Of a DNA stretch of 34,165 nt, positions 11,818 through 22,940 are shown piece after piece. The translations under genes and the position numbers were made by a program. Positions within the stretch are counted from its first letter, which is position 1, and each line of letters opens with the position of its first letter. The DNA comes from an uncultured Oscillospiraceae bacterium (GTDB taxonomy: Bacteria > Bacillota > Clostridia > Oscillospirales > Oscillospiraceae), in the NCBI GenBank assembly GCA_947631845.1, contig CANRMY010000026.1:1-34165 (forward strand), read 5' to 3'. The notes under the pieces were generated by a model that saw only the letters and a list, made by a program, of their open reading frames with translations, made no database searches and had not been told where the DNA came from.

Positions 11818-12315
11818 ATGAAACACGAATGTAAGGTCGCCCTGCTGTGGTCAGACCTCGATGAAAAGGCCATGACCCTGAACGTCTGCAAGCAGGCCGC
11901 CGGAGTCAGAGGCGGAGGAGTGAAGGTCACAAGGCCGAAAACGGAGACCTCCATCCGCAGAATCTCTCTGTCGCAGGAGACCATCGACGTCCTGAAACGG
12001 GAGCATGAAAAACACCCCGAGCTTGAGATCATGTTCCCCTCCCCGAAGACGCTGGGGATATACTACCCTGATTCCGTCACAGCCATCCACAACAAAATAC
12101 TCAAAAGCGCCAGCCTCCCGCACATCCGCCTGCACGATTTGAGACATACCTTCGCCACCTTGGCGCTCCAAAACGGCGTAGACGTAAAGACAGTGTCCTC
12201 CATCCTCGGTCACTTCGACGCCGGCTTTACCCTCCGCACCTATACCCACGTCACCACAAAAATGCAGGAGGAAGCCGCCGCCACCATGGGCAAGCTGATC
12301 GGGGCGAGCGTATGA
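11818..12315 (+). pseudogene. Tyrosine recombinase/integrase, C-terminal catalytic fragment (copy 1)
   Basis: This is the C-terminal part of a phage/ICE-type tyrosine integrase. HDLRHTFATLALQNGVDVKT, the SSILGHF box and the nucleophile tyrosine in TLRTYTHVT are intact. The SAM-like core-binding domain and the first catalytic Arg (normally in a T-G-x-R-x-x-E box) are missing. Match begins exactly at the V-A-L-L-W strand (base 11836). An ATG at 11818 with AAGGAG upstream could still produce a 165-residue protein. Without the first Arg it should not recombine DNA. It forms part of a 0.7-kb repeat whose other copy is at 33233-33933. Confidence 0.8.
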
Positions 12316-12536
12316 GTAAAAATGACACAGCCATAACTAAAAAAAGGCCGTGGGAGCCAAAATCCCGCGGCCTTGTGCTATCTCGTCCTTTCCGCTCCAA
12401 ATTCCCGTTGGGGTCAGAAGTGGGTCAGAACGCGATCAAGCCGAAATCTATCGGAGGGAAGGGATGGGAAGGGGAACCGTCAGGGTTCCCCTTCTGATTC
12501 AATCACTTACCCTCCTCCACCACGAAAAAACCGCCC
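11836..12536 (+). repeat. 0.7-kb direct repeat, copy 1 (recombinase fragment plus hairpin region)
   Basis: Aligned with 33233-33933. Both begin at the same codon of a tyrosine recombinase and run to the same stop with no indel. They continue through roughly 220 bp of non-coding DNA that is even better conserved than the coding part: a GGCCGTGGGA hairpin, the tandem GGGTCAGAA-GT-GGGTCAGAA at 12411-12430, and the hairpin 12468-12494 (GAAGGGGAACC / GGTTCCCCTTC). Better conservation outside the gene suggests that the non-coding part is the functional piece, such as an attachment or recombinase-binding region. Confidence 0.75.
12338..12374 (-). terminator. Hairpin with U-run on the minus strand
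   Basis: Stem AAGGCCGTGGGA (12344-12355) pairs with TCCCGCGGCCTT (12363-12374), with one G-U pair and a 7-nt loop. On the minus strand it is followed by seven T residues. It would end leftward transcripts and shield the transporter gene from them. The matching hairpin at 33741-33771 has a perfect A-T at the G-U position. Confidence 0.6.
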
Positions 12537-12557
12537 AAACGGGCGGTTTTTTCGTGG
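12520..12557. terminator. Bidirectional terminator at the end of the serine-recombinase operon
   Basis: A perfect 17-bp stem, CCACGAAAAAACCGCCC against GGGCGGTTTTTTCGTGG, with loop AAAC. It supplies GC-rich stem plus T-run on both strands. It lies 60 bp past the last gene of the leftward operon. In repeat copy 2 the right half of this hairpin is lost, so homology stops in its middle. Confidence 0.8.
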
Positions 12558-12617
12558 AATAAGCGGTTAAAACTCCTACTACCGAAAAGCTTTGAGGCGC
12601 AACGGCTTTCAGGTTCC

Positions 12618-12968
12618 TCACCGTTCAATTCTCTCAGCTTTTGAAAGATCAAACAAAATCAGGCTCCGTGTCCGAATAAGCTCGCCATGTGCGCGGTACG
12701 AACGGGTCATGTCCCATGAATACAGCGCCGCCAGAGCGGAGCAAAGCCGGGTGCTGGATATCTCAAAGGGCCGGCCGCTCCGGTAAACCTCATCGGGTAC
12801 TTCATGGGACTTAAAGTCTCTCTTTTGATAAGGCGACAGCGCCAGGGATCCGCCGCCGGGAGAGATCATGAAGCAGACGCGGCGCGGGCACCCGATCCCC
12901 CGAAGAGCCTCCAGGAATACGCGGATCCGGCAGGACTTCAGGTAAAAAGAGATATACGCCTCACCCAT
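12618..12968 (-). CDS. Stand-alone recombinase-C-terminal-domain protein, smallest paralogue
   Basis: A 116-residue protein of no established family name. It starts at ATG 12968, overlapping the upstream stop by one base (TGATG). It resembles the domain at the C-terminus of the serine recombinase of this operon: a strand-rich start (CRIRVFLEALRGIGCPRRV), a basic-polar middle (LALSPYQKRDFKS), a FEISSTRLCSALAALYSWD helix and the closing SYRAHGELIRTRSLILFDL. The last two blocks align with the recombinase's FGAALFEIMGWD and IYKVRG...ERIILFNL. It lacks the leading D-L-x-G-Y-Q-V block that the other copies have. No transmembrane segment or catalytic motif is visible. A DNA- or recombinase-binding role is a guess from context. 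Confidence 0.6.
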   Translation of the reverse strand: MGEAYISFYLKSCRIRVFLEALRGIGCPRRVCFMISPGGGSLALSPYQKRDFKSHEVPDEVYRSGRPFEISSTRLCSALAALYSWDMTRSYRAHGELIRTRSLILFDLSKAERIER

Positions 12969-13426
12969 CACGCCTCTCTCTTGCCCTTTCCCCTCCAGGT
13001 TTCCGGATGGGAAAAGTCGAAGAGGAGCATGATCTTGCTGTCTGCGGAGACGATCCTCCCCTTGGCGCGGTAGGTATTTTCCTTCTCCCACTGCCACACC
13101 TCATAGATGGCGGAGGAAAACTTCACACTCTCCATTCGTTTGGGCGCGAACTCCTTGATGTTTTTCCGCCAGAGGATGGCGTCTTTATCCTTTGCCGTCA
13201 CAGGGGTGACCAGTATACATTTCCGCGCCGGATTGATCTCCATTCGGATGCGTTCGCAGTTGTTGAGCGCGGTCAAGGCGATCTTGTTGAAGGTAATGCC
13301 CGAGGGCCAAATGGTACAGGCGGGCGTATCATAGATGCTGCGGCTGGAAAAATAGTCGGAGCTGACCACCTGAAAGCCTTCCAGGGATATCTCCTCTATA
13401 CCGGTCTTGAAATGTTTTTCGTCCAT
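12968..13426 (-). CDS. Stand-alone recombinase-C-terminal-domain protein, middle paralogue
   Basis: A 152-residue protein homologous to the C-terminal domain of the neighbouring serine recombinase. Shared blocks in order are GFQVVSSDYF, ACTIWPSGITFNKIALTAL, then IRMEINPARKCILVTP, AILWRKN, SAIYEVWQWEKENTYRAKG and IMLLFDF. It begins 11 bp after the upstream gene stops and overlaps the downstream gene by one base, so it is co-translated with both. The tail after LLFDF is short and basic. The part after the domain (P-x-E-W-x-x-x-F-G in the recombinase) is absent. No enzymatic motif is seen and the function is unknown. Confidence 0.65.
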   Translation of the reverse strand: MDEKHFKTGIEEISLEGFQVVSSDYFSSRSIYDTPACTIWPSGITFNKIALTALNNCERIRMEINPARKCILVTPVTAKDKDAILWRKNIKEFAPKRMESVKFSSAIYEVWQWEKENTYRAKGRIVSADSKIMLLFDFSHPETWRGKGKREA

Positions 13427-13437
13427 ATTCTGTCACC

Positions 13438-14037
13438 TTATATTTTATCGCTCGTGATATAGCCGTTGGCAAGATCGACCTTATATTCCTGCTCGTGATC
13501 CTTCACGGGAATGCCGAAATAGTCACGCCATTCTCCCGGAAGACAGGATCTTGTTTTCGGCCCTCCGAGAAACAGCTCAAAATCGCTCAGCTTGAACAGG
13601 AACAGCGCCTCTCCCTCGTATACAGCCGGTCTTCCCATGATCTTGTACCTGTATTCGGGATCCCATCCCATCAGATCAAACACCTTCCCGGCGAAGATCC
13701 TGCAAAGCATATCCCGAGCCAAAAGCTCCTTTTCCCCGCCTCCCTTTGCCCAACGGAGGGAATCGGGGGCGTCCGGGGAGCAGGGCCGGATGATCAGGCG
13801 TTTCTGCTCCGGATGTACCAGTATCAGAATGTGTGTCGCTCCGGGGAACCTTCTGAGGCAAGCCATATTGAATTTGATCCGTGTGGGCCAGATCGTGACG
13901 GACGGTTCCCTTGTGTGGGCAAACAGCTCGCCTCTTGTCACCTGATACCCCGCCAGATCCGCAATGAGCTCCGTCTCATCGTCCCTGATCAGTTTCGCGT
14001 TATTAAAAACGTTATCGAGCGCCTCCTGATCCGACAT
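13438..14037 (-). CDS. Stand-alone recombinase-C-terminal-domain protein, full-length paralogue
   Basis: A 199-residue protein. ATG 14037 is used because it lies inside the recombinase end (26-bp overlap) with AAGGAGG upstream; the frame upstream of it is antisense-free but unsupported. It matches the recombinase C-terminus over its whole length: LAGYQVTRGELFAHTREPSV, TIWPTRIKFNMACLRRF, ILVHPEQKRLIIRPC, SLRWAK, KVFDLMGWDPEYRYKIMG and LFLFKL. A second region then matches, LPGEWRDYFGIPVKDHE against the recombinase's FFPEEWEGEFGDEFYDH. This copy is therefore the recombinase tail without the recombinase. It could compete for, or cooperate on, the same target as the fused domain (inference). Confidence 0.7.
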   Translation of the reverse strand: MSDQEALDNVFNNAKLIRDDETELIADLAGYQVTRGELFAHTREPSVTIWPTRIKFNMACLRRFPGATHILILVHPEQKRLIIRPCSPDAPDSLRWAKGGGEKELLARDMLCRIFAGKVFDLMGWDPEYRYKIMGRPAVYEGEALFLFKLSDFELFLGGPKTRSCLPGEWRDYFGIPVKDHEQEYKVDLANGYITSDKI

Positions 14038-15847
14038 ATGTGTTTTTCGCCTCCTTGATAAGTTCTTCGGCAAGAGATTTGACGTCTTCCTCAGAGGGCG
14101 TGGAGAACTGCTCGATTCCAGGCGCCGGGATGCTGGCTTTTCCCGCTCTCCACTCGGTGTCCCCCGATAGATAGTAGATATCGTTCTCCGCGATATGGTC
14201 ATAGAACTCATCCCCAAATTCCCCCTCCCATTCCTCGGGGAAGAACTCCGCCCGCCGCTTTTTGACGCCGTCTTGCCCCGGTATTTCAACCAGGACGGCC
14301 CCCACGGCAGAGCACAGATTGAATAAGATGATCCTTTCATCGCCTCGGGTCATCCAGGTGCCCCGGACTTTATATATGCAGTCCGGGTCCCAACCCATGA
14401 TCTCAAACAGGGCCGCCCCGAAATGAGGGCAGCTGAGACTTTTGGAGTAAATTCCCGCCGCGTCCTCCGCCCTCCAGCGAATGCTGTGTATTGCTCCCTG
14501 ACCGCAGGGCCGTATCGCCAGCTTGCGCTCGGAGGCGTGAAGGAGGAGCTGGATATGTCCCACATCGGCAAACCTTCTTACACACCAGGTGTTAAAGGTG
14601 ATACGGCCTTTTGAAACAGTGAGGGACGGGCCGTCATATCGTATCTGTGTAAATTGATTTCGCACAACCTGATATCCCGTGAGGTCGAAAGCGGAGAAGG
14701 ATTTTTTGGGGACGTGGGTCTCCCGTCCCTTTTTCCTGACGCTGTTGGAGGAATCAAAATACGGTGCCGGTTCTTCGTTTACCCAGTGGTGGTTGATGGG
14801 GACGAACCCTCGAAAGATCCCTTCATCTATGACATGGATGCCGGGCAGGGAGCCCTGAATATGGTGCTTCCTGTTCTGGATCAGTACCTGGACCAGCTCA
14901 AACTCTTCTCGGGAGATTATGGCCTCATGCTTATTTTTCAAGCGCCACTGATCTCTGTCGCCGCGGTTTTTCCTGTGGGTGTGGTCAAACAGGTCGCTTG
15001 TAAAGGTTTTCCATGTCAAAATATCGCCGCAGTAGCGCTCATTGGAAAGGATGTATCTTATGGAACCGGCGCTCCACATGGCGGAACCGGTTTTTGTCCG
15101 GCATCCGATGTCGGTGAGGAAGGCGGCGATACTCTCCACGGATCTGCCGCTCAGATATGCGCCAAATATGAACCGCACGATCTTGGCTTCCTCGCGGTTC
15201 ACGGTCAGGGGAGCGTCCTTGACATATCTACCAGAGGCATCCTTTTGCCTGTCGTAGCCCAACAGCGGAGGCGTCAGGGCTTTCTCATCCTTAAAGCGCT
15301 GGGTGAGCGACCATATCATCGCCTCTCTCTTTTTGACGGATTCCTCCTCGGCGAACTTTGCCAGAAACGTCAACATAAAATCGGAGTTTTCATCCAGCGT
15401 ATTCAGCCCGTCCGTTTCAAAAAACACGCCCACCGGCGGATCCAGTTTTTTGAGGCGGCGGATCAGCGAGACGCAGTCGATCAGATTCCGGGCAAAACGG
15501 GAGACGCTTTTTGTTACAATGAGGTCGTATTCTCCCCGTTCACAGGCCGCGATCATCTCGTTGAACTGTGTCCGGTTCTTCAGCGAAGTACCGGAAATAC
15601 CTTCATCCGCGTAAATACGGCGAAGATCCCAATTTGGCCGCTCACGGGCCACTTGCCGGTAGTGCGCCTGCTGCAGCTCATAGGAGGAGAGCTGCTCGTC
15701 GCTCCCGGTGGACACCCGGCAATAGGCGCAGGTACGAAAGATCCTGTTTTGGTCATTGAGGCTGATCTTGGGCTTCGCGGGTATGTAGACCTTGTCGCCG
15801 GCGCTCTGGGATTGGTACATCCTTCCGATCTCTTCGCGGCGATCCAT
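14012..15847 (-). CDS. Large serine recombinase with a non-canonical C-terminal domain
   Basis: A site-specific recombinase of the resolvase/invertase superfamily, 611 residues. Its catalytic domain (about 36-185) has CAYCRVST with nucleophile Ser46, YADEGISGTS and KSVSRFARN. The recombinase domain (about 195-330) reads PLLGYDRQKDASGRYV...IRYILSNERYCGD...HEAIISREEFELVQ. Large serine recombinases normally follow with a zinc ribbon (two Cys pairs) and coiled coil. Here there is no Cys cluster. A linker (IFRGFVPINHHW) leads to a 130-residue domain (386-515) and a P-E-E-W-x-x-x-F-G tail. The same domain occurs alone in three downstream genes. It sits downstream of an XRE regulator. It probably moves or inverts a DNA segment; the att sites are not identified. 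Confidence 0.88.
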   Translation of the reverse strand: MDRREEIGRMYQSQSAGDKVYIPAKPKISLNDQNRIFRTCAYCRVSTGSDEQLSSYELQQAHYRQVARERPNWDLRRIYADEGISGTSLKNRTQFNEMIAACERGEYDLIVTKSVSRFARNLIDCVSLIRRLKKLDPPVGVFFETDGLNTLDENSDFMLTFLAKFAEEESVKKREAMIWSLTQRFKDEKALTPPLLGYDRQKDASGRYVKDAPLTVNREEAKIVRFIFGAYLSGRSVESIAAFLTDIGCRTKTGSAMWSAGSIRYILSNERYCGDILTWKTFTSDLFDHTHRKNRGDRDQWRLKNKHEAIISREEFELVQVLIQNRKHHIQGSLPGIHVIDEGIFRGFVPINHHWVNEEPAPYFDSSNSVRKKGRETHVPKKSFSAFDLTGYQVVRNQFTQIRYDGPSLTVSKGRITFNTWCVRRFADVGHIQLLLHASERKLAIRPCGQGAIHSIRWRAEDAAGIYSKSLSCPHFGAALFEIMGWDPDCIYKVRGTWMTRGDERIILFNLCSAVGAVLVEIPGQDGVKKRRAEFFPEEWEGEFGDEFYDHIAENDIYYLSGDTEWRAGKASIPAPGIEQFSTPSEEDVKSLAEELIKEAKNTYVGSGGAR

Positions 15848-15868
15848 GCTGTCAGCTCCTTTTTCTGT

Positions 15869-16177
15869 TCATTGTCCGCACCGATCCCGCATCTGCTTGA
15901 TCAGTCTGTTTTTCTCGGCGAGGATGGATGCCAGCGCCTGCAGCTCCAACGCCTCTTCCCCTTCAAGGCCGTACAAGTCAAGGGAAAGCGTGTTGGTCCG
16001 CCCCAACAGGTAATCGGTGGTCGTTCCGAAAATATCGGCGATCCTTGAAAGAGTTTCCAAAGGGGGCTGCCGGATGCTCTGCTCATATGCCGAGATCGTG
16101 GACCTGTCTATTGACAGAAGACCGGCAAGCTGGTCCTGAGAGAGATTCTTCGCCTGCCTGAGCTCCTTCAATCGCAT
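15869..16177 (-). CDS. XRE-family transcriptional regulator
   Basis: A small DNA-binding repressor-like protein of 102 residues. The Cro/CI helix-turn-helix covers residues 1-60 (MRLKELRQAKNLSQDQLAGL, then STISAYEQSIRQPPLETL, IADIFGTTTDYLLGR). The C-terminal 40 residues form a charged helix, likely for dimerisation. ATG 16177 fits the family start. A GTG at 16195 adds six residues and has a purine-rich GGAAGGGGG further upstream. It is the first gene of the recombinase operon, 21 bp before the recombinase start, and probably controls it. An imperfect CCTG-N14-CAGG dyad at about 16213-16234 is a possible operator. Confidence 0.85.
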   Translation of the reverse strand: MRLKELRQAKNLSQDQLAGLLSIDRSTISAYEQSIRQPPLETLSRIADIFGTTTDYLLGRTNTLSLDLYGLEGEEALELQALASILAEKNRLIKQMRDRCGQ

Positions 16178-16234
16178 TGAAAACGAAAATAACACCGTCT
16201 GCGGCCCCCTTCCTGTAAGATAAGTATATCAGGA

Positions 16235-16653
16235 AGTGTGCTACAATTGGTCGCAGACTCGTGACACTTTGCAACCACGCACGCATTTTGGTAATGAAAA
16301 TATCTTAGTCGTACATTCAGGTCAACCCAAATGGAGTATTACCATGGTTCATTTTTCAGGCCGGCGTTATGCGGCGGTCTTTTTGTTGTGTCCCTTTTCC
16401 GCCTCCAACATTTTTCTGTTTTCTTCATTTTTTGCTTGACTTTTTATTTGCAGGCTACTGTGCTCTTTCAAATTATGGATAGACTAATGAAGCGCTCCCC
16501 GGCGGACGATCACGTCTATACTTTCGTGGACAAGAGGCGAGTTGAGGGCAAGCCTTTCGCATACAAAAAAACTGTCATGGATATATCTTGCAGGAAGAAC
16601 CTTATCATGGTATACTCTATATGCCAGTGGTATTGATGAATTGTTTTTGCGTC
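16235..16653. other. About 420 bp without a recognisable gene
   Basis: Lower in G+C than its surroundings. Short open frames exist on both strands (the longest plus-strand one begins at 16331) but have no convincing ribosome site, composition or family match. The part next to 16200 should contain the promoter of the XRE-recombinase operon. I found no clean -35/-10 pair beyond a TATACT-like -10 on the minus strand near 16224. Probably a degraded end of an integrated element. Confidence 0.4.
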
Positions 16654-16898: not shown

Positions 16899-17356
16899 AT
16901 GAGACTCTTTGAGGCTGTCCCTTCTGAGTTGTTCTCCGTTCTGGCATCGCCAAACAGGGAGCTGTAGCGGATGCGTTGGATGTACTCTACGAGGCGTATG
17001 GGGACAACCTGAAAATATCCGAGAACACCTATTACAGTATGCTCAGAAGCAGGCTGGAGGATCAACTCGTCCAAGCCGATTTTTCGGATGAGGATATTGA
17101 TGAGGAGGAGCTTCGGGACATCTCCGGCCGCGCCCGTTTTTTGATACGCAAGCTGGGAAGCCGGGGGTGGTTTGAGAAAGAGCGGGGCAGGGACTATAAC
17201 AGCTTTGAGGAGTATCTTACCATTCCAAGCTATAGCGGCCGCATTTTGGAGCTGCTCCATCAACTTCGGGACAACGCGCCCATGCGGGGCTTTTCCTATG
17301 TGTTCGGAACCTATTCCGCGCTGACTGTAGCAAGGAACAGCGCAAGCTATATTATT
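16899..17356 (+). pseudogene. jetA: Wadjet anti-plasmid protein JetA, N-terminal remnant
   Basis: JetA is the kleisin-like subunit of the Wadjet SMC-type system that cleaves circular plasmids. ATG 16899 (GGAGG upstream) gives MRLFEAVPSELFSVLASPNR and E-L, then a TAG. One missing base at about 16965 explains this, since the next frame continues ADALDVLYEAYGDNLKIS, RSRLEDQLVQADF, EEELRDISGRARFLIRKLGS, RGWFEKERG and SYVFGTYSALTVARN. Similarity ends near 17345, where the IS3-family element begins. About 150 of the roughly 450-500 residues remain. JetB, JetC and JetD are not in the window, so the system is dead here. Confidence 0.75.
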
Positions 17357-18566
17357 CACTATGAATTTACTGATATAATAGCCGCATCACGTAAAAGGAG
17401 ATGCGGCTATGACTACATATAGCGGCACACAGAAGCAAGCCATTTTAGACCGTTACTTTTCCGGGGAGAGCGCCAGAACGCTGGTTTCGAGTACCGGGAT
17501 CCCGCGCAGTACGATATATGCGTGGGTAAAGAAGGCAAACGATATCGGAAAAAACGATTCAATCAGCAGAAAAGCCTACAACCAGTTACAGGAGCACGCC
17601 TGTCGTCTGGAGGAAATGATGAATATTCTGAAAACCTGCGGTTGCGCGCCGCATGATCCGCTTTCTGAAAAGCTGAAAACGTTGGAATGGATATACAATG
17701 AGGGTGGTCACAGTGTAAGGGTTATCTGCGAGGCTCTTGATGTCCCCAGAGGGACCTTTTATAACCACATCTTTCGCAACAAGAGAGAGAAAAACAGTTA
17801 CGAAAAGCGCCGGGAGGAGTTGCGCGGGCATATTCGGGAAGTCTTTGATAACAGCAATCAAATTTTCGGTGCCGCTAAGATCGTTGCCGTTTTGCGGGAG
17901 CAGGGGGTAAATACCACAATAGAGACGGTGCGCCAGCTCATGCGGGAGATGGGGCTGGCGAGTGTCCGAAAGGGGGCGAAAAAGCAATATGAGGACGAGT
18001 CCAGAAAAACAAGAAATGTCGTTAAGCGCAATTTTCAGGTGGACAGGCCAAACGCGGTCTGGGTGAGCGACGTCACCTTTTTCCGATTCAACGACCTTTA
18101 CTATTGCGTTTGCGTCATTATGGATCTGTACGCCCGTAAGATCATTTCCCACCGCGTTGGTACCAACAATAGCACCCAACTGGTCAAAAGTACTTTTCGC
18201 GAAGCGTATGAGTCACGGGACCCGGAAAATGGCTTGATTTTTCACTCGGACCAGGGGAGCAATTACCGTTCTCGTGCTTTCCGTGCCTTTTTGACAGAGC
18301 GCGGTGTTATCCAATCATTTTCCAATCCTGGTTCGCCATATGACAACTCCGTGGCGGAATCGTTCTTTTCCTCCATGAAAAGCGAAGAACTGTACAGATA
18401 CAAGTACCACTCGGAGAAAGAGCTTCGCGAGGGCGTGGCGCGATATATACGTTTTTACAACTCTGAGCGCCCACATAAATCCCTCAGCTACAAGACTCCA
18501 AATCAGAAAGAGCAGGAATACTGGACAGCCATGGAGAATAGTTGAATATACAGATTAGACACAGTG
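17357..18566 (+). mobile_element. IS3-family insertion sequence (boundaries approximate)
   Basis: A 1.2-kb element carrying one transposase gene. The ends are suggested by an imperfect inverted pair: CACTATGAATTTACTG beginning at 17357 and its partner, the reverse complement of 18550-18566 (CACTGTGTCTAATCTG). A duplicated target could not be identified because jetA sequence is not found on the right side. Either the insertion was followed by deletion or the right flank was already different. Confidence 0.6.
17409..18545 (+). CDS. IS3-family transposase, single uninterrupted frame
   Basis: A DDE transposase of 378 residues. The N-terminal helix-turn-helix has TLVSSTGIPRSTIYAWVKKA. A second helix-turn-helix follows (VICEALDVPRGTFYNHIF), then the HTH_21/linker (NQIFGAAKIVAVLREQGV). 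The rve core has all three acidic residues: Asp in WVSDVTFF, Asp in FHSDQGSNY and Glu in SVAESFFSSMKSEEL. Most IS3 members split this protein into orfA and orfB joined by a -1 frameshift. Here it is one frame. AAAAGGAG lies about 8 nt before the ATG. It appears intact and potentially active. Confidence 0.9.
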   Translation: MTTYSGTQKQAILDRYFSGESARTLVSSTGIPRSTIYAWVKKANDIGKNDSISRKAYNQLQEHACRLEEMMNILKTCGCAPHDPLSEKLKTLEWIYNEGGHSVRVICEALDVPRGTFYNHIFRNKREKNSYEKRREELRGHIREVFDNSNQIFGAAKIVAVLREQGVNTTIETVRQLMREMGLASVRKGAKKQYEDESRKTRNVVKRNFQVDRPNAVWVSDVTFFRFNDLYYCVCVIMDLYARKIISHRVGTNNSTQLVKSTFREAYESRDPENGLIFHSDQGSNYRSRAFRAFLTERGVIQSFSNPGSPYDNSVAESFFSSMKSEELYRYKYHSEKELREGVARYIRFYNSERPHKSLSYKTPNQKEQEYWTAMENS

Positions 18567-18636
18567 GTTCGCAAGTGACCGTTTTTGATTTTTAGTATTG
18601 GCTTTTTCATAAAATCTTCAACGTGTATCTGGACAT

Positions 18637-18960
18637 TTAGCGAAAGCAAAAAAGCTGGAACCCGTTGAAAATCAAGGCAAAATAAAAGAGAGGACCTTCA
18701 TGTCCAAACCTCAGCGGTTCAGATTTGAAGGTTCTCTCAGACGGATTCGAACCCCCGACCCGATGATTACAAACCAGCTCCAGCCTATAATTCTGAGTAT
18801 TTCTAAGACTTATCGCTCCGTTTCCCTCCAAAATCAGCAGCTCGTTCATGCTGTTCGCTCCACTGTTTCCACTCGCGAATTTCGTCCAGTGGGTCAACTT
18901 GTGGGTCAGGCCGCCTTCCGGGCAGAAAGTGGGCTGGACGATTCGGATAATCGAAGAATC
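18637..18960 (-). other. Integration-site remnant region (GGGTCA repeats plus tRNA 3' fragment)
   Basis: No gene is supported here. The segment holds GTGGGTCAACTT-GTGGGTCAGG at 18889-18910, like the tandem GGGTCA motif in both 0.7-kb repeats. It also holds the tRNA fragment at 18730-18778. An inverted repeat on the minus strand, GAGAACCTTCA against TGAAGGTCCTCTC with T-rich DNA after it, resembles a terminator that starts inside the tRNA end. This is the signature of the tRNA-side end of an integrated element whose integrase has been lost. Confidence 0.5.
18730..18778 (-). other. 3' part of a tRNA gene, probably tRNA-Thr-like attachment-site remnant
   Basis: On the minus strand the DNA reads an anticodon arm (GCTGG-TTTGTAA-TCATC), a variable loop and a T-arm with loop TTCGAAT (stem GGGGG/CCGTC, one mismatch). 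A seven-base acceptor half TGAGAGA and an A discriminator follow. No matching 5' half is found upstream. Integrases that target tRNA genes leave exactly such 3' fragments. The anticodon assignment (TGT) is tentative. Confidence 0.55.
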
Positions 18961-19828
18961 AAGCAAGGAGGGCCTTCCAATCTACCGGGAAACCCATAGA
19001 CGTGATTTTCACGGAGGGGTACTTTTCGATATACGATTCAAGCTCGTCCACGAAGCGCTTCCAGCGCCGGTCATGGGGGACTATCTTGGAAACGCACAAG
19101 AGTACGCCATAGATCCTGTTATTCCCGATGCCCATTTGTGTGTACTGCTTGTACAGCTTTGGTGTTTTGGCGAGCTTGGCATTGTAAAGCCGTCCATAAT
19201 GAGCGCAGAGATTTCGTACGTAAGCGATGCTCTCGATCCAGCTCTCGAAATATGTATATCCGACTCCGTATGTGCCGGCAACCGCCTTCTTGTCCTCATT
19301 TTTCATGTTCTTGAAAAATTTTGACAGCGTACCGAAGCTGAAGAGCTCCACCAGCGCGTACATAGGAATTTTTCCATCCACGTAATTTGTCTGAAAATTC
19401 CTGACGAACGGGGACTTGGCGTTGCGTTCAATTTCGCGGTTTATGTCCTCGATAAACTCTTTATGATAGCCGGCATCGGCAAAATTTGCGGGGGTTTCAT
19501 ATCCCAAAACGCCGTACTTGCAGGAGAAGTAATTTGCCAGCCTGCAACGCAGATTGACTTCAACGCGCTCGATGACCGTAAACAGAAGCTGACGAAATTT
19601 CCCATTAAATTTATACAACTCCACGATTTGTTCAAAGGTCATCCCGTCTGAATATGTGCCGTTTTTGGGCTTCAATCCAAGGCTAAATGCCTTTACAAGG
19701 CGAAAGTAGGATATATCATTCAAAATATTCTCCGCCATGCTCTCGTCACTGATCGTAAGGCCAATGCTTTTGAGATTTTTCACCTGCTCCGCTACAGTCA
19801 TGGGCGACTGATGCTCCTTGAGCTCCAT
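18959..19828 (-). CDS. Abi_2/AbiF-type abortive-infection protein (HEPN superfamily)
   Basis: A 289-residue Abi_2 (PF07751) protein related to lactococcal AbiD/AbiF, phage-defence factors thought to be HEPN RNases. The motif ISYFRLVKAFSLGLK follows the N-terminal helix. IERVEVNLRCRLANYF comes next, then PMYALVELFSFGTLSKFF. The HEPN-like R-x4-H is R205-N-L-C-A-H210. Start ATG 19828 is chosen for its GAGGTGA site; an upstream in-frame extension would run through the hairpin RNA region. It is transcribed from a promoter at 19903-19931, and a conserved-looking hairpin forms the 5' leader. It is divergent from a TOTE-type gene, and a Wadjet remnant lies nearby. Confidence 0.88.
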   Translation of the reverse strand: MELKEHQSPMTVAEQVKNLKSIGLTISDESMAENILNDISYFRLVKAFSLGLKPKNGTYSDGMTFEQIVELYKFNGKFRQLLFTVIERVEVNLRCRLANYFSCKYGVLGYETPANFADAGYHKEFIEDINREIERNAKSPFVRNFQTNYVDGKIPMYALVELFSFGTLSKFFKNMKNEDKKAVAGTYGVGYTYFESWIESIAYVRNLCAHYGRLYNAKLAKTPKLYKQYTQMGIGNNRIYGVLLCVSKIVPHDRRWKRFVDELESYIEKYPSVKITSMGFPVDWKALLA

Positions 19829-19852
19829 GAAAGTCACCTCAGTAATTAAATG

Positions 19853-19890
19853 ACCCGACGTGGTACGCATCGTTGAGAGGCGTGTCGGGT
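19853..19890 (-). ncRNA. Hairpin RNA upstream of the abi gene (abiF RNA motif candidate)
   Basis: On the minus strand the outer stem ACCCGAC/GTCGGGT encloses an inner ACGC/GCGT stem with an 11-nt loop and a short ACCAC bulge. It starts a few bases after the predicted transcription start and ends 24 bp before the abi start codon. An abiF RNA motif upstream of abi genes has been described bioinformatically. The layout fits it, but I cannot run the covariance model. Confidence 0.55.
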
Positions 19891-19902
19891 TCTGTTACTG
19901 TT

Positions 19903-19931
19903 ATTATACGCGAATACAAGCAAAAATGCAA
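19903..19931 (-). promoter_or_regulatory. Promoter of the abi gene and its leader RNA
   Basis: On the minus strand TTGCAT (19931-19926) and a perfect TATAAT (19908-19903) are separated by 17 bp. The start point is expected near 19896, just before the hairpin. Confidence 0.65.
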
Positions 19932-19974
19932 CAATAATATTTGCCAAACAAATAAAAGATTTCGTAGCAATGAC

Positions 19975-20003
19975 TTGTGCGAAGGGAAGCTAAGACCTAT
20001 AAT
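19975..20003 (+). promoter_or_regulatory. Promoter of the TOTE-type primase-helicase gene
   Basis: TTGTGC (19975-19980) and a perfect TATAAT (19998-20003) lie 17 bp apart, about 40 bp before the start codon. The promoter is divergent from the abi promoter within 45 bp, so the two defence genes share one control region. Confidence 0.6.
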
Positions 20004-20042
20004 TATAAAATGTAATATAAAAAAGATGTTGGGTGAGGTGTT

Positions 20043-22940
20043 ATGGAGAATACAGCAAATATCGATGGGAGGAATTATTGCTTTTTGGAGCTTCTTGGCG
20101 CGGCTGACGGGAGTGGGGATTATGTGCTCTGCTCCGATTCCAACGGTGTGCGGTATGTCTGTCCGGCGGAGGTGTGGCGGGCAAACGCCGTCGTGGATAC
20201 ATCGTCGGTCAATCGAAGCAGTTCCGCCAAAGAGAAGATTGATCTCTTTCTCGACCTTTTTCGCGGGCGCGAGGACGTGTACGCAAGGCACTGGTACAGT
20301 CCGAAGACGGGCAAGAGCGGCTATGCCCCCGTGTGCCGGAACGAGTGGCGGGAGGGCGTGTGCGATAAAAGGAAATACAAATGTGCCGAGTGTCCAAACC
20401 GGGAATTCGCGCCGTTGAACGCCGAGGTCATCAGGGCGCACCTTATGGGGCGGGACGAGCTTTGCCGGGATGTGGCGGCGGTCTATCCCATGCTGCCAGA
20501 CGACACCACGCGTCTCCTGGCCATGGATTTTGACGGGGCGAGCTGGAAGGCCGACGTCTCCGCTGTGAGAAAGGTCTGCGAAAGCGTCGGACTTGTCCCC
20601 GCCGTGGAGCGCTCCCGCTCTGGTGACGGCGCCCATATCTGGTTTTTCTTCTCGGAGCCTGTCAAGGCCGCGGATGCCCGGAGGCTGGGCACGTCCTTTT
20701 TGACAAGAGCCATGGGCGAGCGTCACGAGCTGTCCTTCGCCTCCTACGACAGGCTCTTTCCGGCCCAGGATTTCCTTCCCAAGGGCGGGTTTGGGAATCT
20801 CATCGCCCTACCGTTTCAGGGGCGGGCACAACGGGAAGGAAATACGCTCTTTGTGGACGGGGAATTTGAGCCATATCCCGATCAGTGGGCGTTCCTCTCG
20901 TCCTTGCCGAAGCTCTCTTCCGGGAAGCTCGACGAATTGTTTGCCGAATTAAAGGACGACGTCGACATGGGGCCACTTCTGGATGCCGAATCCGTTAGGC
21001 CACGGCCCGAAAAAAGGACACGTCGAAAGCTGACAAGGGAGGACTTCCCCCTCTCCGCAAGGCTCATGCTGTCCAATGCCCTCTATATCGACAAATCCGG
21101 CTTCACAAGCCCCGCCCTCAACGCCATCAAACGTCTGGCGGCCTTTCCAAACCCGGAGTTTCGGCAAAAGCAGGCCATGCGGCTGCTCGTGAGGGGCGTG
21201 CCAAGGATTATCTCCTGTACTGACGAGGATATGGACTTTCTCGCGCTTCCCCGCGGCTGTATTGATGCCTTGATCGAATTGCTTGATGAATACAAGGTGC
21301 CCTATTCCTTGGAGGACAGCCGCGCTGAGGGCCGTTCCATCGACGCAATATTTTCTGGCACTCTTCGCCCAGAGCAAGCGTCGGCGGCGGAGGCCCTTTT
21401 GCGGGAGGACACCGGCGTGCTGTCCGCCGCCACCGCCTTTGGAAAAACCGTCATCGGCGCGTACCTTATCGTACAGCGCAAGGTCAATACCCTGATTCTA
21501 GTCAACTCCACCGCCCTGCTCAGCCAGTGGCGGGAGGCGCTGGAGAAATTCCTGACGATAAACGAATCGCTCCCAGTGGAGCCGAAAAAGCGCGGGAGAA
21601 AGAAGATTCGCCGCCTGATCGGTCAGCTGGGCGGCGGGAAGGACACGCGGGGCGGCGTCATCGACATTGCCCTGATGCAGTCGCTGTTCGAGGGCGACGA
21701 GCGAGAGGTCAAGCCCTTCGTTGAGGACTACGGCATGGTCATCGCGGACGAGTGCCACCACGTCGCCGCCTTCACTTTCGAAAAGGTCATGAAGGCGGTG
21801 CGGGCCAAATACGTTTATGGTCTTTCGGCCACGCCGGTCAGGAAGGATGGACACCAGCCCATCATCTTCATGCAGTGCGGCCCGGTACGGTACATCGTGG
21901 ACGCCAAAAGCCAGGCGGAAAAACGGGCGTTTTCTCATTTTGTAATCCCACGCTTTACAAGAACGCGACTTCCGGCAATCAGTGGCATCCAGGACGCCTA
22001 CGCAGGGATCGTGGAGAACAACGCCAGAAACGATTTTATCATCTCCGACGCCCTGCTAACGATCTCCGAGGGACGCACGCCTATTTTGCTCACGGAGCGC
22101 AAGGAGCACGCTGCTGCGCTCGCCTCAAGGCTTCAGGGAAAGGTGCAGAATGTCATCCTGCTCGTCGGCAGTGCGGGTCAAAAAGAGAAGCGGGAGAAGC
22201 TGGCGGCGCCGCAAAATGTCCCGCAAGAGGAGACGCTGGCCGTGGTGGCCACAGGCCGATATATCGGTGAGGGCTTTGACGCGCCGAGGCTGGACACACT
22301 CCTCCTGACCATGCCCGTCTCCTGGAAGGGCACGCTGGCGCAGTACGCGGGCCGCCTCCACCGGAGCTACGAGGGAAAACGGGAGGTGCGGATCTACGAC
22401 TATGTGGATGCCCAAGTGCCCATCTTAGAGAGGATGTATCATAAGCGTCTGCGGGGCTACGCGGATCTGGGCTATGAGGTGAAGCTGGGCGGCCGCGACA
22501 ACGCGTCCTGCGTTATTTATACAGGAAGTGAATACCTGGAGCCCTTTACAACCGATTTGGCAAGCGCGGCCCGGGAGATCGTCATCTCCAGCCCCTATAT
22601 TCAGAAAAACCGGGTAAAATCCCTGCTGCCGCTCCTGACAGGCGTCCCCGCCACGGTCTACACCGCCCCACCGGAGAGCTATAAGCCGGAATATCAGGAC
22701 GCCTTAGCCGCATCGATTGCCCTGCTGGAGTCCTCCGGCGTCACCGTCATCCGCCGCCCGAACCTCACTCTGCGTCTCGCGATCATCGATAAGTCCTTTG
22801 TTTGGTACGGTGATATAACCCCCCTGGCCTACCCCGCCCGCGACGCTGACGCTATCCGCTTCGACAGCGCCGACATAGCAGGAGAGTTGCTGGACACTCT
22901 GAACGGTTCCGGAGAACAGCTTGGTATTGAAGAAGTATAG
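20043..22940 (+). CDS. TOTE-type archaeo-eukaryotic primase / superfamily 2 helicase fusion
   Basis: A 965-residue cytoplasmic nucleic-acid enzyme of the type annotated as TOTE conflict system, proposed to act against invading DNA. A Cys cluster (C98, C107, C114, C117) may bind zinc. The AEP primase domain has metal ligands D162 and D164 in LLAMDFDG, S-G-D-G-A-H-I-W with H198, and GFGNLIALPFQGRAQ. The SF2 helicase follows: Walker A ATAFGKT (463-469), DECHH (569-573), LSATPVRKDG and motif VI QYAGRLHRS. A C-terminal phospholipase-D-like region (845-930) ends LRLAIIDKSFVWYGDI, without the usual His, so its nuclease site looks lost. GTGAGGTG lies upstream of the ATG. Confidence 0.85.
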   Translation: MENTANIDGRNYCFLELLGAADGSGDYVLCSDSNGVRYVCPAEVWRANAVVDTSSVNRSSSAKEKIDLFLDLFRGREDVYARHWYSPKTGKSGYAPVCRNEWREGVCDKRKYKCAECPNREFAPLNAEVIRAHLMGRDELCRDVAAVYPMLPDDTTRLLAMDFDGASWKADVSAVRKVCESVGLVPAVERSRSGDGAHIWFFFSEPVKAADARRLGTSFLTRAMGERHELSFASYDRLFPAQDFLPKGGFGNLIALPFQGRAQREGNTLFVDGEFEPYPDQWAFLSSLPKLSSGKLDELFAELKDDVDMGPLLDAESVRPRPEKRTRRKLTREDFPLSARLMLSNALYIDKSGFTSPALNAIKRLAAFPNPEFRQKQAMRLLVRGVPRIISCTDEDMDFLALPRGCIDALIELLDEYKVPYSLEDSRAEGRSIDAIFSGTLRPEQASAAEALLREDTGVLSAATAFGKTVIGAYLIVQRKVNTLILVNSTALLSQWREALEKFLTINESLPVEPKKRGRKKIRRLIGQLGGGKDTRGGVIDIALMQSLFEGDEREVKPFVEDYGMVIADECHHVAAFTFEKVMKAVRAKYVYGLSATPVRKDGHQPIIFMQCGPVRYIVDAKSQAEKRAFSHFVIPRFTRTRLPAISGIQDAYAGIVENNARNDFIISDALLTISEGRTPILLTERKEHAAALASRLQGKVQNVILLVGSAGQKEKREKLAAPQNVPQEETLAVVATGRYIGEGFDAPRLDTLLLTMPVSWKGTLAQYAGRLHRSYEGKREVRIYDYVDAQVPILERMYHKRLRGYADLGYEVKLGGRDNASCVIYTGSEYLEPFTTDLASAAREIVISSPYIQKNRVKSLLPLLTGVPATVYTAPPESYKPEYQDALAASIALLESSGVTVIRRPNLTLRLAIIDKSFVWYGDITPLAYPARDADAIRFDSADIAGELLDTLNGSGEQLGIEEV

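Follow-up and report, generated by a model that had tools for sequence, protein, structure and literature searches.

A serine recombinase operon with free relatives of the enzyme's own C-terminal domain: a candidate heteromeric recombinase in gut phages and Clostridia

Serine integrases usually act as one protein, directionality factors aside, which is the reason why they serve as genome tools. What, then, is the role of three small genes that directly follow a serine recombinase gene and encode relatives of that enzyme's own C-terminal domain? The question is raised by contig CANRMY010000026.1 of an uncultured Oscillospiraceae bacterium (assembly GCA_947631845.1), of which we analysed a stretch of 34,165 nucleotides, hereafter the window. 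Its minus strand carries, in this order, an XRE-type helix-turn-helix (HTH) gene, the recombinase gene (rec, product Rec) and the genes for S1, S2 and S3. A first-pass annotation of the sequence had proposed heteromeric control of the recombinase, and an enzyme accompanied by several co-kept free relatives of its own domain indeed points to a heteromeric system. On balance, we consider it probable, with modest confidence and from sequence comparison, that the locus encodes a heteromeric serine recombinase in which a companion domain, as we name it here, takes the place of the zinc-ribbon region, with S1 as a core subunit and the Rec C-terminal domain (CTD), S2 and S3 as probable readers of DNA sites or bridges between partners.

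The relationship among the four domains is clear. Used as a single-sequence phmmer query against the open reading frames (ORFs) of 40 sources, CTD retrieved S1 (E 1.8e-25) and S2 (E 2.7e-10) and did not reach S3 at 1e-3; the S2 query retrieved S3 (5.9e-5), and the S3 query S2 (1.8e-5). Profile-profile alignment with hhalign (27 CTD, 77 S1, 16 S2 and 29 S3 rows) joined CTD to S1, S2 and S3 with probabilities of 100%, 99.8% and 99.1%, respectively, and S2 to S3 with 98.1%, so that all three small proteins, whose lengths of 199, 152 and 116 residues were also confirmed, match the recombinase domain to which the first-pass annotation had related them. The sequence block described there as [G/Q/S]-W-[D/E]-x(3-4)-Y-[K/R] is seen in all four as W-[DE]-x4-Y-[KR]. 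In the window, the P-x2-W-x3-F-G tail is confined to CTD and S1, and the G-[YF]-Q-V start to CTD, S1 and S2, in agreement with the reported loss of the tail from S2 on and of the start as well in S3. Across loci, the tail, in the form P-x2-W-x3-[FYV]-G, was found in 130 of 143 CTD ORFs and 131 of 139 S1 ORFs, compared with 1 of 28 for S2, 0 of 127 for S3 and 0 of 12 for the two-gene-form or orphan proteins described below (L165, with a frameshifted Rec, is left out of these counts as well as of the tree and the constraint comparison). By profile similarity, all these proteins belong to the companion-domain family. S1, S2 and S3 of the window gave no Pfam match above the curated cut-offs and none in NCBIfam (E up to 1), PHROGs (0.01) or PADLOC (0.001), and the S1 profile matched no Protein Data Bank (PDB) sequence at E up to 1; the one weak recurring Pfam match was DUF6128 (11 of 77 S1 rows, best E 0.0011), with a score of 13.9 bits for the window S1 (cut-off 27). 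AlphaFold models residues 41-150 of S1 with block means of 85-95 in pLDDT (predicted local distance difference test), and the tail with low confidence, which suggests that the tail shared by S1 and CTD could be a docking peptide. The mean net charge of the domain is +3 to +6 per 100 residues in every class, and the window S2 and S3 are basic (isoelectric points, pI, of 9.1 and 9.6).

Rec itself has the Resolvase domain of the serine recombinase superfamily (PF00239, E 1e-25) and the Recombinase domain of large serine integrases (PF07508, E 5.2e-25). Arg44 and Ser46 are kept in all 70 Rec rows with the column, and Arg117 and Arg120 in all 71; these intact catalytic residues argue for DNA cutting. 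In its Resolvase and Recombinase domains and its catalytic serine and arginines, Rec resembles the large serine integrases of the phiC31, Bxb1 and SPbeta YokA type, and two of its four matches among PDB sequences are chains of the SPbeta recombinase YokA. It differs from them in having a different domain where they have the zinc ribbon, and free versions of that domain in its operon. The zinc ribbon of canonical large serine integrases (PF13408) has no match in the window Rec at E up to 1 or in the Rec cores of L208, L278 and L281 at 0.001. Thus, none of these four Rec proteins has a Pfam zinc ribbon, as opposed to all eight of the scanned partner recombinases, that is, the serine recombinases that accompany the operon elsewhere; one of the eight scores 0.1 bit under the curated cut-off. 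Ribbons were scored with Pfam, a regular expression having been dropped because it missed true ones. The companion domain occupies the position of the zinc ribbon in the partner recombinases. The models of the SCCmec recombinases CcrA, CcrB and CcrC were also matched by the Rec core, far under their curated cut-offs (94 of 900 bits for CcrB); Ccr recombinases work in pairs. A phrase search of the open-licence literature found no paper on multi-subunit or accessory-subunit serine recombinases; related searches, on triplets among others, brought up descriptions of elements and studies of integrases.

Are the small genes worn copies of the recombinase tail or distinct subunits? The first-pass annotation had them becoming shorter and more diverged with distance from the enzyme. 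The shortening is real; the gradient of decay is not borne out. In a tree of 125 domains and 122 columns, S3 forms one group (support 92) and so does S2 (support 100); the S2 group stands beside a small S1 group, taken as window-type, with weak support (21). With few exceptions, CTD and S1 are placed separately, 32 of the 36 CTD rows clustering together and four lying elsewhere. The tree was made with a quick method and few columns relative to rows, from 125 rows left out of 218 clustered ones by random thinning within classes, and its root is not known. The class labels require 9 changes on it, where the minimum possible is 5 and the mean for shuffled labels 70.9, which argues that S1, S2 and S3 are old, position-fixed classes rather than recent copies wearing out with distance. 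The classes also differ in constraint. Among the 152 complete loci, pairs with 50-60% identity in the catalytic core (3752 pairs, which are non-independent) have identities of 54.3% in the core, 45.3% in S1, 30.6% in CTD and 24.7% in S3; among window-type pairs with 70-80% core identity (167 pairs), the corresponding values are 73.8% for the core, 76.6% for S1, 60.4% for CTD, 44.3% for S2 and 44.9% for S3. The main comparison leaves out pairs above 95% core identity, and that for S2 the weak rows L187 and L197. S1 thus evolves nearly as slowly as the catalytic core, and CTD, S2 and S3 much faster.

How widely is the arrangement kept? A search of viral contigs with Rec alone confirmed nothing; an S1 alignment did find relatives, and the best 80 of 120 viral-contig stretches and the best 80 of 203 genome-contig stretches were used. 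The operon recurs in gut phages and Clostridia in two layouts. Type I runs from HTH through Rec, S1 (about 240 residues, 34-44% identical to the window S1) and S3 (about 130 residues) to a 317-residue protein and a DUF6551 protein and lacks S2; two recombinase genes on the opposite strand often follow it. The 317-residue protein was labelled ParB-like by eye, and the DUF6551 protein matches the PHROG 'ParB-like partition protein'; the two are a linked pair in type I (e.g. L037 7439-9318), with 95 and 87 distinct ORFs, respectively. Type II (L040-L058 and L120-L132) has an S1 that is 60-95% identical to that of the window, all three companions, and no ParB-like or DUF6551 label in any layout row; S2 occurs mainly in these window-type operons. 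In some type II loci, an AAA_25 ATPase gene precedes rec (L132) or two recombinases lie upstream (L042-L053, L132). No recombinase pair is near the operon in the window, L124, L127, L129 and L130, where at least 5.9 kb of upstream DNA is covered; L120 and L122 cover only about 1 kb upstream. The neighbouring genes differ between window-type loci.

Behind 166 ORFs with a fused CTD, there are two free companions in 124 cases, three in 31, one in 10 and none in 1, a count that is biased because most loci were chosen by their S1 match, is not deduplicated, and has S2 of L121 and L122 entered as S3 by position. A less biased figure comes from the survey of related genomes that the first-pass annotation had called for: of 250 sampled genomes from the window's family, 23 had a match (the window's own included) and 15 a fused Rec-CTD, and S1 stands beside it in 13 of these 15; in the other two, S1 runs off the contig (G035) or the contig ends within Rec (G124). 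Across the wider phylum, matches were found in 2 of 299 genomes with the S1 profile and in 5 of 398 with a profile of the two-gene form, described next, the window's own genome being one in each.

In this two-gene form, seen at ten loci of the family (L206-L209, L211-L214, L216 and L254), a Rec core without CTD (340-431 residues stop to stop, the 340 being cut by a contig end) is directly followed by one free companion (126-181 residues, likewise stop to stop). In the alignment, these cores run on for about 10-40 residues beyond a conserved aromatic stretch and tryptophan and then stop, at the point where fused enzymes continue via a linker into CTD. The free proteins match S3 in hhalign (99.3%), and four two-gene-form or orphan proteins group on the S3 side of the tree (support 98). 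A profile made of free proteins only (A6) recovers the window CTD (5.8e-8) and S1 (2.3e-7) in their own genome, S2 and S3 of the window not being among its matches there. The domain can thus be said to be used both in cis, as CTD, and in trans, as free companions. Because the two-gene form has the domain as a free protein only, the free domain may be ancestral and its fusion to the enzyme derived; the first-pass description of S1-S3 as copies of the recombinase's own control domain is right as to relatedness, and its direction may be reversed. L213 and L212 adjoin genes matching restriction-modification models, L206 and L216 have similar neighbours by eye, and in L211 a gene with a tRNA_U5-meth_tr match, probably RumA, is about 600 nt away; rumA is a known target of integrative and conjugative elements (ICEs) with serine integrases, according to passages of PMC4701971. 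Plasmids gave no match to the free proteins of L213 and L208.

A tblastn search with one two-gene companion led to 18 phage records, 10 of them of Streptococcus. In Phi1207.3, orf3 (138 residues; 56.7 bits with the companion profile) directly follows orf2, a 370-residue resolvase without a zinc ribbon, and at the other end lie orf56 and orf57, in which zinc ribbons are present. This prophage inserts at a GA dinucleotide in comEC, and its three resolvases are named as its recombination machinery in passages of PMC4260502; Table 1, as given in these, steps from orf2 to orf4 and so leaves orf3 without annotation. Like the window type, Phi1207.3 and its relatives among the streptococcal mef(A) prophages pair a zinc-less resolvase with a companion protein; they differ in having a single companion and an enzyme without CTD. 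ORF2 of Phi-m46.1 also matches the companion profile (53.6 bits). Among the "Ca. Heliusvirales" gut phages, three of four records share the order HTH-Rec-S1-S3 with the window and belong to type I, differing from it in the added 317-residue and DUF6551 proteins and in the lack of S2. Each of the three has two recombinases on the opposite strand, and in the one pair scanned with Pfam both have zinc ribbons; the fourth record, L281, is of the two-gene form, again with two recombinases after it on the opposite strand. Nine "Ca. Heliusviridae" core genes are present, according to passages of PMC9226167, in 61 deposited phages, all but one of Streptococcus. In streptococcal ICEs with a serine-integrase triplet, 10 of 42 integrases lack the zinc ribbon (PMC4701971); these modules have three serine recombinases each, and the window has one only. 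Three serine recombinases are likewise found in L132 and L217, and in Phi1207.3 they are spread over both ends. The window, with a single serine recombinase, has no such module, the genome's other recombinase matches being on other contigs; its copy is a compact HTH-Rec-S1-S2-S3 cassette without the zinc-ribbon recombinase pair.

The simplest account of these patterns is that the functions of the zinc ribbon would be divided among several related subunits, of which S1 is the most constrained. The companion domain would do the jobs of the zinc-ribbon/coiled-coil region (site reading, synapsis and gating) in cis as CTD and in trans as S1-S3; we infer that it binds DNA or bridges subunits. S1, given its near-core constraint and the tail it has in common with CTD, would be an obligatory structural subunit, and the faster-evolving CTD, S2 and S3 would make contact with variable partners or with DNA sites specific to the element. 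Two zinc-ribbon serine recombinases often accompany the module in intact phages and elements, and it would act together with them in integration and excision. Of the options offered by the first-pass annotation, alternative target-binding subunits come closest to this reading. A more far-reaching version can be put forward only tentatively, its chances falling somewhat short of even: a heteromeric class of large serine recombinases in which an undescribed companion domain, fused and separate, replaces the zinc-ribbon/coiled-coil region, with S1 as universal hub, CTD, S2 and S3 as exchangeable site readers, a three-enzyme integration machine formed in phages with two zinc-ribbon recombinases, and a free ancestral domain that was later fused. 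If true, a lineage that splits site reading or synapsis into subunits would show how that part of the enzyme evolves, and a recombinase retargeted by exchanging a subunit might be on offer. The unannotated gene of the Phi1207.3 prophage family and the zinc-less third recombinase in elements with three recombinases also acquire a testable role, and a gene family found repeatedly in gut phages and restriction-modification islands is defined.

Several observations weigh against a heteromeric enzyme of this kind. Across all loci, S1 lies 2-9 points below the core and is not quite as constrained. S3 is dispensable in a few loci: L121 and L122 lack it, their homology to the window breaking off between S2 and S3, and so do L157, L168 and L171, in which the next operon gene comes directly after S1. 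Of 18 stand-alone companions examined, 11 have an adjacent Rec core (that of L284 broken by a stop), and 7 have no recombinase in the fetched stretch (L259 being cut 0.4 kb upstream); L297 has no Rec core in view either, L298 is cut by a contig end, and three of the recombinase-less loci lie beside Fic/Doc-family genes. No recombinase lies in the 9.2 kb surrounding ORF2 of Phi-m46.1, two annotated site-specific recombinases being located at the other end of that phage in the stretches examined. In the phages, the zinc-ribbon pair could perform all recombination. Unlike the class means, the window CTD (pI 5.95) and whole S1 (pI 5.86) are acidic. Finally, searches with the lspA-rluD flank and the left flank of the window defined no attachment (att) site or empty site; the relatives found were mostly about 70% identical, too diverged, or other copies of an integrase fragment.

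The main rival is control of excision, a rather unlikely explanation in our judgement, in which Rec integrates alone and one or more of S1-S3 are directionality factors, a companion binding to CTD and thereby switching the enzyme to excision. Small proteins whose genes share an operon with the recombinase gene, next to it and behind an HTH gene, would suit such a role, as would the resemblance of the conserved tail of CTD and S1 to a docking peptide. Known serine-integrase directionality factors act on the zinc-ribbon/coiled-coil region, which counts in favour of this view, and the title of PMC5814800 states as much for phiC31 integrase. However, known factors of this type are unrelated proteins with poor conservation, in contrast to S1, which is almost as conserved as the catalytic core, and a two-gene form made of one companion and a domain-less enzyme fits an essential subunit better than an optional switch.

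Somewhat less likely still, the module might serve control or maintenance (regulation, partition, multimer resolution or an antitoxin-like function), with Rec as a resolvase and the companions as DNA-binding regulators. In "Ca. Heliusvirales", HTH genes lie near the start of the operon, which runs on into the genes for the 317-residue and DUF6551 (ParB-like PHROG) proteins, orphan companions adjoin Fic/Doc genes, and the window-type cassette stands alone among differing chromosomal neighbours. But the 317-residue and DUF6551 pair is absent from window-type operons, from two-gene loci and from the surroundings of orf2-orf3 in Phi1207.3, and the catalytic residues, Ser46 included, are intact. 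The companion and Fic/Doc neighbours are found at L293 3564-4524, L294 4401-5302 and L210 5929-7355, and may reflect a toxin partner or chance in islands. The first-pass annotation also offered dominant competitors as an option; that the companions, being free forms of the enzyme's domain, tie up the enzyme or its sites in this way or as decoys is improbable: S1, nearly as conserved as the catalytic core, is more conserved than CTD, the domain to be competed with, the classes are fixed by position, and the enzyme of the two-gene form has no such domain. We reject the idea that the genes, which do shorten with distance and of which S3 is missing in the five loci named above, are functionless decaying tandem duplicates, since their frames in the window are open, the same position-fixed classes recur in the same order across many loci and viruses, and S1 is under nearly core-level constraint.

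The features of the window cassette are collected in Table 1.

Table 1. Features of the recombinase cassette and its borders, in window coordinates
Feature	Position	Strand	Basis or remark
XRE-type HTH regulator, first operon gene	15869..16195	(-)	Pfam HTH_3, E 2.1e-16; 21 nt before rec
Serine recombinase Rec, 611 aa	14012..15847	(-)	Resolvase + Recombinase domains; Arg44/Ser46/Arg117/Arg120; no zinc-ribbon match
CTD, companion domain in cis, Rec residues 385-560	14168..14695	(-)	P-x2-W-x3-F-G tail at end
S1, 199 aa, free companion domain with tail motif	13438..14037	(-)	Homology to CTD
S1 tail P-x2-W-x3-F-G, residues 167-175	13513..13539	(-)	P167, W170, G175 invariant (77 rows)
S2, 152 aa, free companion domain without tail	12968..13426	(-)	Homology to CTD
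S3, 116 aa, free companion domain without G-Y-Q-V start and without tail	12618..12968	(-)	Homology
Terminator-like GC stem and T run 3' of S3	12525..12546	(-)	By eye; absent from consensus scan listing
Imperfect inverted repeat GGTTGCA-N14-TGCGACC before HTH gene	16249..16276	(-)	

By eye, 26 nt are shared by the reading frames of Rec and S1, AAGGAGG stands at 14050-14056, 11 nt separate S1 from S2, and the S2 stop and S3 start share one base in TGATG; this spacing makes translational coupling plausible. Across the loci compared, where gaps are estimates with gene starts guessed by a simple rule, the distance from rec to S1 is between -30 and +30 nt in 130 of 154 cases (and in 10 of 10 in which S1 is the only companion seen), compared with 29 of 30 for S1-S2, 23 of 31 for S2-S3 and 65 of 113 for S1-S3. 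The inverted repeat before the HTH gene is common to the window, L120, L121 and L122, has a variant in L123 and no second copy within the window; it may be an operator or a recombination site. A DNA match of 96% over window positions 12507-16341 ties the window to L120, from an Oscillospiraceae metagenome-assembled genome; the upstream breakpoint adjoins IS3-like sequence and therefore need not be the end of an element. In L121 and L122, the cassette sits at the same place near lspA.

A few loci depart from these layouts. The Rec of L101 (4323-7969), as well as L085, L090, L103, L119, L187 and L197, is longer (731-798 residues stop to stop), and in L101 an extra 241-residue gene product with no Pfam match is encoded between Rec and S1. 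In L217 (6616-7218) and L218 (6597-7250), an extra protein of about 200 residues is encoded directly before Rec; that of L217 has a Resolvase match of 29.4 bits against a cut-off of 23.3, and the protein may be a resolvase-like partner. In L215 (6487-9068), of type I, a separate CTD-class ORF follows a 415-residue Rec core and precedes S1, the 317-residue-type protein and DUF6551; the record has ambiguous bases in this stretch.

Among 19 window ORFs scanned with Pfam, several ORFs, some of them large, being outside the scan, no phage structural genes were found. The right flank (16976-22940) looks like a defence island, with a JetA-matching fragment (16976-17422), an IS3-like transposase with rve and HTH_21 domains (17409-18545), AbiD/Abi_2 (18959-19870) and an AEP-TOTE primase-helicase protein (20043-22940). 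A place for Rec and S1-S3 in a defence system was considered and rejected, as none of them has a PADLOC match at 0.001. On the other side, the cassette adjoins the C-terminal part of a tyrosine integrase (165 residues, 11818-12315), a fragment with several similar copies in related genomes, for example in G547.

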